A DNA stretch of 32,451 nucleotides. Origin: Candidatus Levyibacteriota bacterium. Lineage in GTDB: Bacteria; Patescibacteria; Microgenomatia; Levybacterales; UBA12049. Made by a program: the position numbers and the translations under genes. Of this stretch, positions 2,940 through 30,367 are shown piece after piece. The stretch lies in assembly GCA_003173915.1 (NCBI GenBank), contig PPGL01000059.1, positions 1 to 32,451 of the forward strand, written 5' to 3'. The notes under the pieces are model-generated. The model saw nothing but the letters and a program-made list of their open reading frames with translations. It had not been told where the DNA came from and ran no database searches. Position 1 is the stretch's first letter, and the number at the start of each line of letters is the position of its first letter.

Positions 2940-3308
2940 ATGATTGATAATCCTCGACTACTACAATTGGTTCAGTCATCGTCCGAAGGAACTCATAGAC
3001 CTTTTCAAGAATATCGAAAACAACATCAAGGTGAAGGAAGAAGACCGAGTTCGGGTCCGATAACCACTCATTTATCTGCTTCGCTTACTGTTGCCTCTGC
3101 AGCAGAAAAACAAGCACTCGCAGGTACTTTTGTCCGCATTTTAGCTGGAGAAGATTTAGTTACTCTTATTTTACATGGACACCCCTTACTTCATAAACTA
3201 CAAGAAATGGGAATGGAAAGTGCTGATGTTTTTAGGCAAATTGTTTTGGCAAAACAAATAGAACCTAATTCTCGTGATAGTGGTGAAAGTAGGCGAAGAG
3301 CAGGATAA
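2940..3308 (+). CDS. hypothetical protein, 122 residues
   Basis: I do not recognise a family. The N-terminal half is polar and basic and probably disordered. Residues about 40-105 look helical (SASLTVASAAEKQALAGTF, then a Leu/His-rich amphipathic stretch), and the tail is rich in Arg, Ser and Gly. There is no signal peptide, membrane segment or Cys motif. The gene has its own candidate promoter and stops 3 nt before the -35 box of the proS promoter. Codon use looks like that of its neighbours. It could be a lineage-specific small protein; the frame is uninterrupted but nothing else confirms that it is expressed. Confidence 0.5.
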   Translation: MIDNPRLLQLVQSSSEGTHRPFQEYRKQHQGEGRRPSSGPITTHLSASLTVASAAEKQALAGTFVRILAGEDLVTLILHGHPLLHKLQEMGMESADVFRQIVLAKQIEPNSRDSGESRRRAG

Positions 3309-3310
3309 TT

Positions 3311-3339
3311 TTGACAAGCGAGCTAAGAATACGTATAAT
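3311..3339 (+). promoter_or_regulatory. consensus sigma70-type promoter of the proS leader
   Basis: TTGACA (3311-3316), exactly 17 nt, TATAAT (3334-3339): a perfect match to the vegetative consensus and the strongest promoter in the window. Transcription should start near 3346, about 380 nt before proS, leaving room for the T-box leader. It begins just after the stop codon of the upstream gene. Confidence 0.85.
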
Positions 3340-3382
3340 TAGATAAATGCGATAATTGGGAATTCCCGCCCAATTTTATGAA

Positions 3383-3453
3383 CAAGATTCTGGACAAGTC
3401 CTTCGACAAGCTCAGGACAGTGAGCAAAGTTGAACTGCCAGAATGACGAGTTC
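3383..3453 (+). repeat. dispersed repeat sequence inside the presumed T-box Stem I
   Basis: CAAGATTCTGGAC (3383-3395) and CCAGAATGACGA (3438-3449) recur in the same order and orientation inside nadE (22975-22987 and 23000-23011). The interior TTCGACAAGCTCAGGACA (3402-3419) matches 22626-22643 of nadE with one difference. Both blocks belong to short palindromic repeats of the kind scattered through small bacterial genomes. Confidence 0.65.
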
Positions 3454-3562
3454 ATGAAGCAGACTACGACGAGTAAGTCCGGAGGCAAAACCGAAAAGAA
3501 AAGTGCACAAAGCAAGGTGGTAACACGATAATTTAGAGTTCAGAATCTAGAATTCAGAATTA

Positions 3563-3609
3563 CGTCCTTGTAAGAGTCAAGAATATTGATTTTTACACGG
3601 GCGTTTTTT
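3563..3609 (+). terminator. intrinsic terminator of the proS T-box
   Basis: CGTCCTTGTAA (3563-3573) pairs with TTACACGGGCG (3593-3603), with one mismatch and one G-U pair, and is followed by TTTTTT (3604-3609). Its 5' arm is the 3' arm of the T-box antiterminator, so binding of uncharged tRNA would prevent termination. Confidence 0.8.
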
Positions 3610-3620
3610 GTTTGAATCAA

Positions 3621-3699
3621 TTGTCATCCTGAGCGGAACGAAGTGGAGTCGAAGGATCTTCTATTTTGGGAAGATTCTTCGCTATACTCAGAATGACAA
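3621..3699. repeat. palindromic intergenic repeat (TTGTCAT...ATGACAA)
   Basis: TTGTCATCCTGAG at the left end and CTCAGAATGACAA at the right end form an inverted repeat with one mismatch. The inner parts (GGATCTTC and GAAGATTC) also pair. It lies between the T-box terminator and proS, so it is transcribed in the proS mRNA. It is related by its GTCAT...ATGAC ends to elements at 5213, 18262 and 24391. Confidence 0.7.
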
Positions 3700-3728
3700 C
3701 ATAATAAGTAATTTGTTATCATACATCT

Positions 3729-5516
3729 ATGAAATATTCACAATTACCAATTAAAACAAGTAAAACAGTAAGTGGAGAGTTGAGCTCTAAAAATGCAAAA
3801 CTTTTGACTCAAGCTGGATTTATTCATCAAGAAATGGCAGGAGTGTATACGTTTTTGCCACTTGGACTTCGTGTTCTTAAAAAAATAGAAAAAATCATTC
3901 GCGAAGAAATGGATACAATTGGCGCAGAAGTCTTAATGACAACACTTGCTCCAATTGAAAATTGGGTACAAAGTAAGCGATTTGATTCAGTTGATGTCTT
4001 AATGAAAACAACTCCGGCAAATGAAAAAGCAAAAGCCAAAAATGACACAGAATACGTATTATCTCCAACGCATGAAGATATTGTGACTCCAATGATGCGG
4101 GATTTTAATCGAAGTTATAAAGATTTTCCATTTGCTGTCTATCAAATCCAAACAAAATTCCGTAACGAACCTCGCGCAAAATCAGGTCTACTTCGTTGTC
4201 GGGAATTTCGCATGAAGGACTTATACAGTTTTCATACGTCAGAAGATGACTTAAAAAAATATTACGAGGCATCAAAAGATGTGTATTGGAAAGTGTTTGA
4301 TCGGATTGGATTCAGTCGATCGGATACGTTTATTACACTTGCCTCTGGTGGAGATTTTACTAAGGAATATTCTCATGAATTTCAAACAGTTTGTGATGCT
4401 GGGGAAGATATTGTTTTTCGTGTGCCAAGTTCGGGTTTGACTTTCAACAGAGAAGTTGCACCAAGTAAAGCACCGAGTATGGACCAAAATAATGTAGAGA
4501 TGAAACCTCTTGAAGAAGTTGAAGGAGCAGGAATTATTGGCGTTGAAGAAGTTGCAGCGCACGTTGGTATTGATCCTTCGCAAACAACAAAAACATTGCT
4601 GTTTACCAATCAAAATGGCGAAGTGATTGCTGCTGCTGTAAGAGGCGGATATGACATTGATGAAGAAAAATTAAAAAAAATATCAGGTTCAGATTCTTTA
4701 CAACTCGCATCAGCGGAAACTGTCGAGAAAGTAACCGGTGCAAAAGTTGGATATGCAGGACTTCTCAATCTTCCAAAAGATGTAAAAATCTTCATGGATG
4801 AGTCAATGCAAGGGCGACGCAATTTTGAAATGGGAGCAAATAAAACACATTATCACTCAGTTAATGTAAATTTTGGTCGGGATTTACCAGAACCGGAAAA
4901 GTTTTATGATATTAAAATAACCAAAGAAGGGGATGCGTATCCTGAAACAGGAGAAGTATACGAAGTCTATAAAACAGCAGAAATTGGCAATATTTTCCCA
5001 CTCAACACAAAATTTTCAAAAGCATTTTCGTATTACTACACAGATGAAAATGGAAAAGAAAATCTTGTCTACATGGGATGTTATGGAATTGGTCCATCAC
5101 GAATAATGGGAGTTCTTGTAGAAAAATATGCAGACGTAAAAGGATTGGTTTGGCCGGATTCTGTTGCGCCGTTTCAGGTTCACTTAATTCAAATCAAAAA
5201 TGCTAAATCTTCTGTCATTGCGAGTGAAACGAAGCAATCTCAGGAAGGAGAGATCGCCACGTCGCAAGCTCCTCGCGATGACAATAGGGGAGAAGAAATT
5301 TACAATCTCCTAAAGCAGAATGGCGTTGAAGTTTTCTTTGATGACAGAGAAAATGTTTCGGCAGGACAAAAATTTAGCGATGCGGATTTATTTGGTATTC
5401 CGGTGCGTTTGGTTGTGAGTCAAAAAACAGGAGATGCAATAGAATGGAAAAAAAGAACAGAAGAAGCGACAGAACTCATTAGTCTTGATGAAGTTTTGCA
5501 GAGATTAAAAAAATAA
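3729..5516 (+). CDS. proS: prolyl-tRNA synthetase with an in-frame repeat-encoded insert
   Basis: Class II aminoacyl-tRNA synthetase that charges tRNA-Pro. Visible in order: the N-terminal catalytic core with SPTHEDIVTPMM and CREFRMKDLYSFH (motif 2 region); a YbaK-like editing (INS) domain at about residues 255-380, which clears mischarged Ala-tRNA; motif 3 MGCYGIGPSRIMG; and the C-terminal anticodon-binding domain (FQVHLIQIK...FFDDRENVSAGQKFSDAD). The anticodon domain is interrupted at about residues 495-519 by a segment encoded by a palindromic DNA repeat (5213-5283), lying between the first strand and the following helix. Total length 595 residues, against about 570 for bacterial-type enzymes with the editing domain, which fits one such insertion. 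Expression should be controlled by the upstream T-box. Confidence 0.97.
   Translation: MKYSQLPIKTSKTVSGELSSKNAKLLTQAGFIHQEMAGVYTFLPLGLRVLKKIEKIIREEMDTIGAEVLMTTLAPIENWVQSKRFDSVDVLMKTTPANEKAKAKNDTEYVLSPTHEDIVTPMMRDFNRSYKDFPFAVYQIQTKFRNEPRAKSGLLRCREFRMKDLYSFHTSEDDLKKYYEASKDVYWKVFDRIGFSRSDTFITLASGGDFTKEYSHEFQTVCDAGEDIVFRVPSSGLTFNREVAPSKAPSMDQNNVEMKPLEEVEGAGIIGVEEVAAHVGIDPSQTTKTLLFTNQNGEVIAAAVRGGYDIDEEKLKKISGSDSLQLASAETVEKVTGAKVGYAGLLNLPKDVKIFMDESMQGRRNFEMGANKTHYHSVNVNFGRDLPEPEKFYDIKITKEGDAYPETGEVYEVYKTAEIGNIFPLNTKFSKAFSYYYTDENGKENLVYMGCYGIGPSRIMGVLVEKYADVKGLVWPDSVAPFQVHLIQIKNAKSSVIASETKQSQEGEIATSQAPRDDNRGEEIYNLLKQNGVEVFFDDRENVSAGQKFSDADLFGIPVRLVVSQKTGDAIEWKKRTEEATELISLDEVLQRLKK
5213..5283. repeat. 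palindromic repeat embedded in frame in proS
   Basis: TGTCATTGCGAG (5213-5224) and CTCGCGATGACA (5272-5283) form a 12-bp inverted repeat with one mismatch. The interior (AAACGAAGCAATCTC, then GAGATCGCCACGTCG) also pairs partly. The 71-bp element is read through as about 25 residues (SVIASETKQSQEGEIATSQA and onward) of the ProRS anticodon-binding domain. Confidence 0.8.
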
Positions 5517-9865: not shown

Positions 9866-10786
9866 ATGAAAATCATTGTAACGCACAGCAGTCCTGATTG
9901 GGATGCGATTGCTTCTGTATGGGTATTAAAACGATTTTTGCCTGGGTGGGAAAATGCATCAGTGCAATTTGTTCCTGCAGGACAGCGTGTCGCCCCTTTA
10001 AAAGGTGAGAGTGCAATAGAGCATATTGGTAGTGATGAAGTAATTCATGTAGATACAGGAATGGGACCACTTGATCATCATCAGACATCGGATATGGATG
10101 TCTGTGGTGCAAGTAGAAGTTGGGATTATGTGAAAGGTGAGAATTCAGAATTTAGAGTTCAGAACGAAAAAACAAAAGATAGGGTAGAAGCTATTGATAG
10201 AATTATAAAAATTGTTGTTGCGATAGATCATTTCCAAGAAGTTTTTTGGCAAGATGCATCAGCAGATTATTATGAATTTTCACTGCTTGGGCTTTTAGAT
10301 GGTCTTAAAATTCAAAAACCAAATGATGATGAGTTTTATATGATGTTTGGCATGGAATGTCTTGATGGACTGACTCATCAATTCGAAAACCGTATTTGGG
10401 CCGAACAAGAAATTAAAAAAGGAAAAGAATTTCAAACACGATTTGGAAAAGGCATTGCTTTTGAAACACTTAACGATACTGTCATAAAACTCTCTCAAAA
10501 GATGGGGTATGTCATTGTTATTCGTAAAGATCCGCGCAAAGGGTATGTTCGAATAAAAGCGCGACCTGCACGAAATAGCAAATTGTCAGACTCCAGCTCG
10601 AAAAATAGCGAAGAAGCAATAGATCTTACCTTGGTGTACGAACAACTTTCCAAAATGGATCCGAATGCAACATGGTTTTTACATGTTTCTAAAAAAATGC
10701 TCTTGAATGGTACGCCCAAAAATCCTACAATGGTACCAACAACGTTGAGTTTGGATCAGATAATTAATGTTGTGAAGAATATATAG
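9866..10786 (+). CDS. DHH-like phosphoesterase family protein (MYG1-type motifs)
   Basis: 306 residues. The N-terminal motif THSSPDWDAIAS and the later HVDTGMGPLDHHQ are metal-binding signatures of the DHH superfamily; the pairing of an HxxxD/DA motif with D-HHQ recalls the MYG1/UPF0160 group of nucleases. Members cleave phosphodiester bonds in RNA, nanoRNA or cyclic dinucleotides. A single target cannot be named. At residues about 92-100 a stretch encoded by GAATTCAGAATTTAGAGTTC interrupts the fold; the same string type occurs in the proS leader. The C-terminus (DPNATWFLHVSKKMLLNG) looks like a separate small domain. Start chosen at the ATG 7 nt after a TATACT box. Confidence 0.65.
   Translation: MKIIVTHSSPDWDAIASVWVLKRFLPGWENASVQFVPAGQRVAPLKGESAIEHIGSDEVIHVDTGMGPLDHHQTSDMDVCGASRSWDYVKGENSEFRVQNEKTKDRVEAIDRIIKIVVAIDHFQEVFWQDASADYYEFSLLGLLDGLKIQKPNDDEFYMMFGMECLDGLTHQFENRIWAEQEIKKGKEFQTRFGKGIAFETLNDTVIKLSQKMGYVIVIRKDPRKGYVRIKARPARNSKLSDSSSKNSEEAIDLTLVYEQLSKMDPNATWFLHVSKKMLLNGTPKNPTMVPTTLSLDQIINVVKNI
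10141..10164. repeat. short repeat GAATTCAGAA/TTTAGAGTTCAGAA inside the DHH-like gene
   Basis: GAATTCAGAATTTAGAGTTC is followed by AGAA. The blocks TTTAGAGTTCAGAA and GAATTCAGAA also occur, in the other order, at 3532-3560 in the T-box antiterminator loop. Here they are translated in frame (SEFRVQN) at about residue 92. Confidence 0.5.
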
Positions 10787-22595: not shown

Positions 22596-23478
22596 TCAAA
22601 AAATCAAAATGCAAAGTTCAATCCATTCGGCAAGCTCAGGACAAGAAATTAAAAGTGAAGAGATTGTTACATGGATTTCAGAGATAGTAAATTCTGCAGG
22701 ATTTACCAATGTTGTAATCGGGCTCTCTGGTGGTATAGATTCTGCTCTTTCAACAACACTTGCAGTAAAAGCACTTGGTAAAGAGCATGTGTATCCTGTT
22801 CTATTGCCTTATAACGCAATGCATGTGCAGGCAACGGCTGATGCTCGTAGTGTTATTGAATTTCTAGAAATTCCAAAAGAACATGTGACTCAGATTGATA
22901 TTAGAGAAGGTGTGGATGGAATTCTTAAAAACGTCATTCTGGGGAGTCTTGAAAACACAACTCTAGAATCCAATCAAGATTCTGGACGCACTTCGTTTGC
23001 CAGAATGACGAATTCTTCAGATAAAATTCGACAAGGGAATATAATGGCACGAGTACGGATGATCTATTTGTTTGATTTGGCAAAAAAACTTGGTGCACTT
23101 GTTTGTGGAACAGAAAATAAAACTGAACATTATTTAGGATATTTTACGAGGTTTGGCGACGAAGCATCAGATATCGAACCTATTCGAAATTTGTACAAAA
23201 CACAGGTTTGGGAAATGGCAAAAGAGCTTGATATCCCAGGCCAAATTATTATAAAAGCGCCAACAGCAGGCTTGTGGGATGGGCAAACAGATGAAAATGA
23301 GCTTGGATTTAGCTATACGGATGCAGATAGAATTTTGCAATTATATTTTGATGAAAAGTGTTCTAAAGAAGAAATTATTGCAAAAGGAATTGCAGAGGAA
23401 GTTGTGTCAAAAGTTTTAGATAGAGTAGAGCAAAATGAATTCAAACACAAACTGCCATACGTTTATAATAACAAATAG
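22588..23478 (+). CDS. nadE: NH3-dependent NAD+ synthetase with repeat-encoded segments
   Basis: 296 residues from the ATG overlapping the nadD stop (a TTG at 22534 lies deep in nadD and is rejected). The PP-loop ATPase motif IGLSGGIDSALSTTLAVKAL, then NIMARVRMIYLFDLAKKLGA, GTENKTEHYLGYFTRFGDE and KAPTAGLWDGQTDENELGF are diagnostic. No glutaminase domain, so it uses ammonia. Residues about 115-141 are encoded by a palindromic repeat (22931-23010) just before the conserved helix QGNIMARVRM; another repeat fragment encodes part of the N-terminus (22623-22645). Both keep the frame. The inserted loop replaces a short linker in relatives. Confidence 0.94.
   Translation: MNNQKIKMQSSIHSASSGQEIKSEEIVTWISEIVNSAGFTNVVIGLSGGIDSALSTTLAVKALGKEHVYPVLLPYNAMHVQATADARSVIEFLEIPKEHVTQIDIREGVDGILKNVILGSLENTTLESNQDSGRTSFARMTNSSDKIRQGNIMARVRMIYLFDLAKKLGALVCGTENKTEHYLGYFTRFGDEASDIEPIRNLYKTQVWEMAKELDIPGQIIIKAPTAGLWDGQTDENELGFSYTDADRILQLYFDEKCSKEEIIAKGIAEEVVSKVLDRVEQNEFKHKLPYVYNNK
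22623..22645. repeat. repeat fragment in the nadE N-terminus
   Basis: ATTCGGCAAGCTCAGGACA (within 22625-22643) matches the proS leader string TTCGACAAGCTCAGGACA at 3402-3419 except for one base. It is translated as SASSGQ near residue 15. Confidence 0.55.
22931..23010. repeat. palindromic repeat embedded in frame in nadE
   Basis: CGTCATTCTGG (22931-22941) is perfectly complementary to CCAGAATGACG (23000-23010). Interior GATTCTGGACGCACTTCG continues the palindromic repeat style. The right half matches sequence in the proS T-box leader (3383-3395 and 3438-3449). About 27 residues of NadE are encoded by it. Confidence 0.8.
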
Positions 23479-24385: not shown

Positions 24386-24390
24386 ACTTC

Positions 24391-24492
24391 TGTCATCTCG
24401 AGCGAAGCCGAGAGATCTCATACAAAATACTGTATAATATACTCCGGAGGAAGATTCCTCGATTCATCTCTTCGAGATTCACTTGGAATGAC
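24391..24492. repeat. palindromic repeat between the Q-rich gene and cysS
   Basis: Begins TGTCATCTCGAGCG and ends TTGGAATGAC; inner strings CGAGAGATCTC and TTCGAGATTC are of the same style as the other elements. Its right end provides the ATG at 24488, in frame with cysS. It contains TATAAT (24433-24438), which could act as a cysS -10, and a small hairpin GAGGA-AGAT-TCCTC. Confidence 0.7.
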
Positions 24493-30255: not shown

Positions 30256-30271
30256 ATGACTACAAATTATC

Positions 30272-30358
30272 GTATCTGGAGTGCAGGGAGGGACCTAGCC
30301 CTACGATCTGCCGGCAACCAACAGAACGGTGCCAATTCTAGCCTGAAAGGGAAGATAC
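30272..30358 (+). promoter_or_regulatory. SAM-I riboswitch (S-box) aptamer of metK
   Basis: P1 forms from GTATCT (30272-30277) and AGATAC (30353-30358). The conserved core is present: GGGAGGGACCTAGCCC, CCGGCAACC and CGGTGCCAATTC. The aptamer binds S-adenosylmethionine, the product of MetK, so excess SAM should favour the downstream terminator. GGAAGA (30350-30355) can pair with TCTTCC (30370-30375) of the terminator, a clear antiterminator. Confidence 0.92.
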
Positions 30359-30367
30359 AACTGTATG

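Follow-up and report, generated by a model that had tools for sequence, protein, structure and literature searches.

The window analysed here comprises positions 1 to 32,451 of contig PPGL01000059.1. Close to one end it carries proS, the gene for proline--tRNA ligase, preceded by a promoter and a leader RNA. The features of this region are, from 5' to 3':

3311..3339, + strand: sigma-70-type promoter, TTGACA-17-TATAAT, matching the consensus at 12 of 12 positions
3348..3461, + strand: closing helix of Stem I, UGC (3348-3350) with GCA (3459-3461), enclosing an 80-nt arm
3354..3375, + strand: apical hairpin of an ultrashort Stem I, AAUUGGG / CCCAAUU, loop AAUUCCCG; inner pairs with probabilities of 0.76-0.96
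3365..3367, + strand: predicted specifier codon CCC (Pro), then the purine G3368; unpaired with a probability of 0.96 in the fold
3376..3455, + strand: inserted hairpin arm with the dispersed palindrome GTCCTTCGACAAGCTCAGGACAGTGAGC, absent from the leader of the nearest relative (L001)
3462..3479, + strand: Stem II, GACUAC / GUA(A)GUC, with a bulged A and a GACGA loop; pairs 0.45-0.93
3480..3493, + strand: small hairpin CGG / CCG, Stem IIB-like; pairs 0.93-0.95, with similar ones in relatives
3513..3570, + strand: antiterminator in the nascent-RNA fold, consisting of helix A1 (CAAGG/CCUUG), bulge UGGUAAC (3518-3524) and helix A2 (ACG/CGU)
3528..3562, + strand: antiterminator loop, made longer by repeat string AGAGTTCAGAATCTAGAATTCAGAATT, which matches 10140-10164 and L097
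3562..3609, + strand: intrinsic terminator with U-run, overlapping the 3' strand of the antiterminator; hairpin-plus-U-run score of 35.9
3729..5516, + strand: proS, proline--tRNA ligase (TIGR00409, 423 bits versus a cut-off of 306.7)

From this promoter, transcription would begin at about 3345-3347, immediately at Stem I, and the position of the promoter therefore leaves no room upstream for a long Stem I. A -10-like hexamer was found in the 18 nt ahead of 69 of the 87 related leaders described below, compared with 208 of 1740 random positions. Among 17 proS loci, the nearest relative was that of bacterium WY1.bin131 (L001; 73% identity), the others carrying labels such as Roizmanbacteria, Collierbacteria, Daviesbacteria and similar, which makes a CPR host of the Microgenomates type probable. 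Over the whole window, the sole Rfam family at its gathering cut-off was the SAM riboswitch (RF00162), an ordinary example (53.1 bits, 30269-30361) upstream of metK. Weak Rfam matches to mir-127 and snoZ266 within 3250-3760 (E ≤ 10) were dismissed as chance.

The minimum-energy fold of the nascent RNA held the apical hairpin of Stem I, the arm, Stem II, the IIB-like hairpin and the antiterminator together, and the antiterminator bulge measured exactly 7 nt. In the nascent RNA, A1 was paired with probabilities of 0.94-0.95 and A2 with probabilities of 0.88-0.92, the T-box bulge UGGN lying between them. The terminator hairpin (3562-3604) had an energy of -21.6 kcal/mol (RNAfold) and is mutually exclusive with the antiterminator, as 3562-3570 is common to both. 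The fold and the TIGR00409 match thus agree with a preliminary description of this DNA, which had reported an antiterminator with a TGGT bulge and a competing terminator ahead of proS. A simple terminator scan of 3200-3760 listed no terminator, probably because of an internal mismatch in the hairpin. The terminator with its U-run finishes at 3609, which is 120 bases short of the proS start and speaks against translational control through sequestration of a Shine-Dalgarno sequence. As read by eye, the position expected for a K-turn at the Stem I base had GA-like bases in relatives and AA in the window, and the Stem IIA/B pseudoknot comprised only 3 bp in the window.

To describe related leaders, we built two covariance models. 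The first, R1, came from seven hand-trimmed leaders, the trimmed window leader among them, and matched 67 of the 373 genomes of the class of L001 at E ≤ 0.05, six of these 67 having supplied training leaders. As about 19 chance matches can be expected at 0.05 per genome, the 46 genomes matched at E ≤ 0.001 are the firmer figure. The second, R2, was built from 33 unedited leaders of relatives, with the window row excluded, and gave matches at E ≤ 0.001 in 26 of 379 genomes from the phylum; some of these belong to the class already searched with R1. At E ≤ 0.01, R2 missed the genome of the proline leader L097 (G321), and the models therefore overlook some members.

Six relatives (L001, L007, L008, L009, L013 and L014) shared one arrangement: a base of the AGC/GCU type; then a short hairpin whose loop is UUUCCCG or a variant of it; a second hairpin, mostly with a five-base loop; a third small hairpin; AAGGUGGUA; and CCUU. 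In L008, the apical loop was CAUCCUA and thus contained CCU, another proline codon. The L001 leader matched that of the window, minus the arm. For the wider comparison, 60 of the 75 R1 matches were read together with the window leader; the 14 weakest of the others were excluded, as was L081, considered a chance match. Addition of 28 loci and L097 brought the set to 89, and removal of L039 (a motif variant) and L045 (where the contig ends) left 87 leaders; loci repeating an earlier place, such as L190 and L194, were excluded.

In the 33 unedited leaders, 91.9% of the paired cells were filled by pairs, and both sides had changed in 13 of the 14 pairs. The covariation score was 0.622 versus 0.140 for shuffled alignments (0 of 500 shuffles as high) and at most 0.136 when the partners were slid, in an alignment fitted to R1, which favours this score. 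All six pairs of the Stem II helix had changed on both sides (33 leaders). The base triple of Stem I also covaried across leaders, its outer pair being AU in 21, CG in 3, UA in 3 and GC in 2. R2 aligned the window leader with this base paired; in the energy fold of the window, the 3-bp base reached 2%, which counts against the T-box reading.

The position of Stem I was where our results departed from the preliminary description, which had placed its closure at ATTCTGG/CCAGAAT. Helices of this kind were indeed predicted (0.89-1.0), but inside the inserted arm. The same description had left the specifier between CCC at 3365-3367 and CCA at 3438-3440, and of these CCC was retained. If the repeat arm were itself the working Stem I, CCA would be the specifier; it is followed by G and could in principle serve for proline, and R1 with default filters did put its window match at 3433-3527, inside the arm, which counts against the CCC hairpin. 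We take this misplacement to be an effect of the insert. In the fold, CCA was paired within the arm (unpaired probability ≤ 0.001), while CCC was open, and the alternative hairpin around CCA (3432-3453) had a probability of 0.0. Moreover, R2 with filters off matched the window at 3345-3527 (44.5 bits, E = 5.4e-9), which put UUCCC into the apical loop and handled 83 bases of the leader as insert, and the same CCC hairpin was present in relatives that have no arm. A specifier in the arm thus seems highly improbable. The result that the preliminary description had named as refuting its view, a covariance match whose Stem I excludes the repeat strings, was therefore obtained, except that this Stem I is ultrashort instead of canonical.

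In the related leaders, the codon at this place follows the downstream gene. We used NCBIfam on 30 downstream proteins, chosen so as to represent the codons observed among the 87 leaders; loops and codon frames were assigned manually, with knowledge of the downstream gene. The cognate codon lay at the expected place in 20 of the 22 leaders of aminoacyl-tRNA synthetases named by NCBIfam, several of these synthetase matches falling below the curated cut-off because the fetched genes were cut. This was so for serS (UCC, 2 of 2), tyrS (UAC, 1 of 1), valS (GUC, 3 of 3), alaS (GCC, 2 of 2), argS (CGC, 1 of 1) and proS (CCC, 1 of 1), for seven of the eight ileS leaders (AUC; L070 was one base off) and for three of the four aspS-type leaders (GAC), the fourth (L196) having AAC before an aspartate--tRNA(Asn) ligase.

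Among the genes that do not encode synthetases, we found CGC before argH, CCU before proB, CCC before an ornithine cyclodeaminase gene and GAC before a PEP carboxylase gene, as well as UCC before a phosphoserine-phosphatase-like protein, which was below the curated cut-off. Agreement between codon and gene was less clear for CGC before a GNAT protein (L024), UCC before a phosphatase (L072) and CCC before a tRNA-binding CsaA-like protein (L018). In relatives, proline codons (CCC, CCU or CCG) occupied the specifier place ahead of pro genes. From these sequences, the same small sensor appears to serve further amino acids in relatives. As for the tRNA, the genome of the nearest relative (L001) has tRNA-Pro with anticodons GGG, CGG and UGG; the discriminator base, read by eye, was A on all three, which fits UGGU.

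Leaders with a proline codon were also seen before a small CsaA-like tRNA-binding protein in L018, L027, L032, L044, L049, L050, L054, L057, L059, L065, L071, L073 and L077; the label was given by NCBIfam for L018 and by the N-terminus only for the other twelve.

Evidence for transcriptional control was found across the leaders. A hairpin-plus-U-run score of at least 12 was reached by 76 of the 87 leaders versus 31 of 268 control stretches, a score of at least 20 by 53 versus 2, and a score of at least 30 by 36 versus 0. The 5' arm of the hairpin contained a loosely defined motif of the antiterminator 3' strand in 64 leaders. Of the eleven leaders scoring below 12, four (L023, L043, L061 and L173) seemed by eye to have a terminator; in another four (L044, L049, L059 and L186), no terminator was found either by a score of at least 12 or by eye, and these may act on translation.

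The inserted arm (3376-3455) amounts to 80 extra bases relative to L001, located between the apical hairpin and the Stem I base. It folded as one hairpin of -25.5 kcal/mol, an energy as low being reached by 1 of 300 shuffles. As had been described, its strings recur near and in nadE, as three short matches within the window (TTCGGCAAGCTCAGGACA at 22626-22643, CAAGATTCTGGAC at 22975-22987 and TGCCAGAATGACGA at 22998-23011), and those of the antiterminator loop recur in a DHH-like gene, inside which AGAATTCAGAATTTAGAGTTCAGAA matches the loop (10140-10164). Short as they are (E = 0.008-0.031 for the arm, 2.4e-4 at best for the loop string), these matches make the window alone weak evidence for a repeat.

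The arm might then be a hairpin specific to this leader, resembling a common palindrome by chance or through a lineage-wide sequence bias. This would be in line with the shortness of the matches, with the whole 80-nt arm being found nowhere else among the loci searched, and with most inserts at the same junction being of other types. Indeed, repeat motif A was present in 4 of the 87 leaders (13 of 1352 controls) and motif B in 2 (0 of 1352 controls); as these make up only 6 of the 87 leaders, most junction inserts do not belong to the repeat type of the window. Against such an origin, the 17-base core of the arm, CCTTCGACAAGCTCAGG, was present in 121 of the 349 genomes sampled from the class of L001, with ten copies in G022, and the reversed-letter control gave 0 in the rows inspected; G001 had no copy of the core. 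Identical stretches of 20-21 bases were found in L090 and L108. In addition, residues 135-161 of NadE (27 residues; 22936-23016 of the window) face only 3 residues in a solved NAD synthetase, and arm-like strings fall within this segment, which the solved homologue lacks. A leader-specific origin of the arm accordingly appears rather unlikely, and we regard the arm as a dispersed repeat.

Other palindromes were also observed. Relative to L001, ProS itself has 26 extra residues at a different, in-frame palindrome, TGTCATTGCGAG...GATGACA (5213-5283). Two further palindromes, of the TGTCAT...ATGACA type, were seen at 3622-3698, in the gap between the terminator and proS, and at about 24390-24490, upstream of cysS. 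A search with a second palindrome pattern gave 1-4 copies in 7 of 8 genomes, and 0 copies for the control. Rickettsia palindromic elements and palindromes of the REP/MITE type are small, scattered over genomes and found in frame within genes. The present repeats resemble these elements in being small palindromes scattered in a genome and apparently also in frame inside genes; here, one of them also lies in a regulatory RNA. The comparison is one of form and distribution.

The preliminary description had suggested that a mobile repeat was built into a tRNA-sensing RNA or had replaced parts of it. The first part of this suggestion stood: this is an unusual T-box-like proS leader with repeat strings built in, characterized by an ultrashort Stem I and an inserted arm. 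Replacement of the part that reads the tRNA was not borne out, the codon hairpin being intact and upstream of the arm. In relatives that lack the arm, the same Stem I is present, along with the same Stem II and antiterminator.

Additional hairpins or segments where Stem I joins Stem II, counted by hand since scripted parsing mislabelled several leaders, were present in 9 of the 87 leaders (L020, L021, L035, L036, L042, L052, L064, L205 and the window). Seven of the eight that were folded lay below most shuffles (0-15 of 300 as low); the insert of L021 was not unusually stable (134 of 300 shuffles as low), and that of L205 was read by eye. In L205, an ileS leader, two similar palindromes were found, CCCCACTACGCTAAAGCTACGAGGGG at the junction and a relative of it in Stem II. 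The loop string of the window recurred in L097, another proline leader, at the same place of the antiterminator, after the T-box bulge, and TCGACAAGCTCA directly followed the bulge in L018, L020 and L053. Two alaS leaders, L034 and L053, had an additional hairpin within the specifier loop, just before GCC.

Insertion of the arm could nevertheless have broken the T-box, leaving a decaying leader, deaf to tRNA-Pro, with proS expressed through partial read-through. The 2% pairing of the Stem I base with the arm present would be expected in such a case, and one related locus (L093) has a leader remnant upstream of proS. What argues against decay is that the specifier loop, Stem II, the 7-nt bulge, the antiterminator, the terminator and the promoter are all intact, and that extra RNA occupies the same junction in the eight other leaders listed above. 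We consider loss of function unlikely.

We therefore favour, with a probability of roughly 0.78, a transcription-attenuating T-box riboswitch with an ultrashort Stem I, into which a repeat arm was inserted and whose switch probably works, because both repeats sit where some related leaders carry extra hairpins. The leader looks like a transcriptional variant of the T-box with ultrashort Stem I, in which repeat hairpins are tolerated at a few places, and on this model its function in the window is likely. RNA polymerase would start at about 3346, and the first hairpin would display CCC in its apical loop, where it could pair with the anticodon GGG of tRNA-Pro; Stem II would dock on the codon-anticodon duplex. 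The ACCA end of uncharged tRNA-Pro would pair with UGGU (3518-3521) and stabilise the antiterminator, so that proS is transcribed, whereas charged tRNA-Pro would be unable to pair and the terminator would form. On this view, the arm at the junction of Stem I and Stem II arose by insertion of the dispersed palindrome, and the antiterminator loop owes its additional length to another repeat string. A small tRNA sensor thus appears to switch proS in this candidate phyla radiation bacterium.

The leader was patchily distributed near proS. A proS match was found in 60 of the 73 genomes of the L001 family, and R1 at E ≤ 1 matched 4 of 30 fetched proS loci of this family (L094, L113, L097 and, weakly, L103). 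The leader is therefore often absent near proS, which counts against the T-box reading. In L001 itself, it lies 2.1 kb upstream of proS, ahead of an aminotransferase-proC-proS run and outside the stretch searched. In the 420 bases read upstream of proS in L093, we observed a CCTTG-terminator stretch without the T-box motif, perhaps a decayed leader.

As in transcriptional T-boxes of family RF00230, the window leader combines a predicted reading of the anticodon by a specifier, a UGGN bulge and an antiterminator competing with a terminator, upstream of a synthetase gene. Unlike the canonical form, it has no long Stem I, no specifier in a side bulge and no distal loops binding the tRNA elbow. 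A search with RF00230, as the preliminary description had proposed, gave no match at the gathering cut-off in the window, and relaxing the threshold to E ≤ 10 for 3250-3760 gave none either. Of 20 related loci, none reached gathering for any Rfam family. Related leaders, where seen, matched RF00230 below threshold (e.g., 48.3 bits versus a cut-off of 93 for G013:C43). In the class, RF00230 matched 198 of 373 genomes at E ≤ 0.05, 18 of them above the cut-off; part of the 198 is due to chance, as the control gave 6 of 14 known genomes at E ≤ 0.05, with 2 above the cut-off. T-boxes are thus no novelty for the class, and RF00230 already picks up some of the present leaders below its threshold.

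According to PMC7583486, apical specifiers are known for short Stem I's, mostly in translational T-boxes, and transcriptional T-boxes are said generally to need a long Stem I. Translational ileS T-boxes with an ultrashort Stem I were described in Actinobacteria (Sherwood 2015, as cited in PMC7583486), and translational ileS T-boxes also figure in PMC1262725. With the Actinobacteria type, the present leaders share the specifier in the apical loop, Stem II and the purine after the codon. They differ in that an intrinsic terminator takes the place of the Shine-Dalgarno sequestrator, many amino acids are concerned, the phylum is another one and, in the window, a repeat arm lies at the junction of Stem I and Stem II. 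TBDB, as described in PMC7778990, used RF00230 and a class II model, the latter run in Actinobacteria and applied also to class I matches with truncated Stem I; truncated T-box forms may thus be present in TBDB. No T-box paper naming these lineages, or using the wording ultrashort Stem I, was found in the open-licence PMC literature.

A family that combines an ultrashort Stem I with an intrinsic terminator would make the long-Stem-I rule testable with natural RNAs; these measure only about 90-200 nt up to the T-box motif, and those read here display some nine amino-acid codons. Such a family would also add a regulatory layer, largely below the Rfam cut-off, to the amino-acid economy of a lineage with reduced genomes, and the natural repeat insertions would offer a direct means of probing where a T-box can accommodate additional RNA. 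More speculatively, palindromic mobile repeats might have been recurrently domesticated as arms of ultrashort T-boxes in Patescibacteria, a junction arm replacing the missing distal Stem I (e.g., by stacking on the tRNA or by faster folding) and enabling a minimal Stem I in fast transcriptional control; we regard this as quite improbable.

Finally, nine leaders (L022, L023, L038, L040, L043, L046, L058, L060 and L076) carried an additional domain after Stem II and ahead of the antiterminator, in which an element like GUGUGUC...GGAGCACU was present. By eye, the same leaders showed an internal hairpin with a U-run, resembling a second terminator inside the leader.
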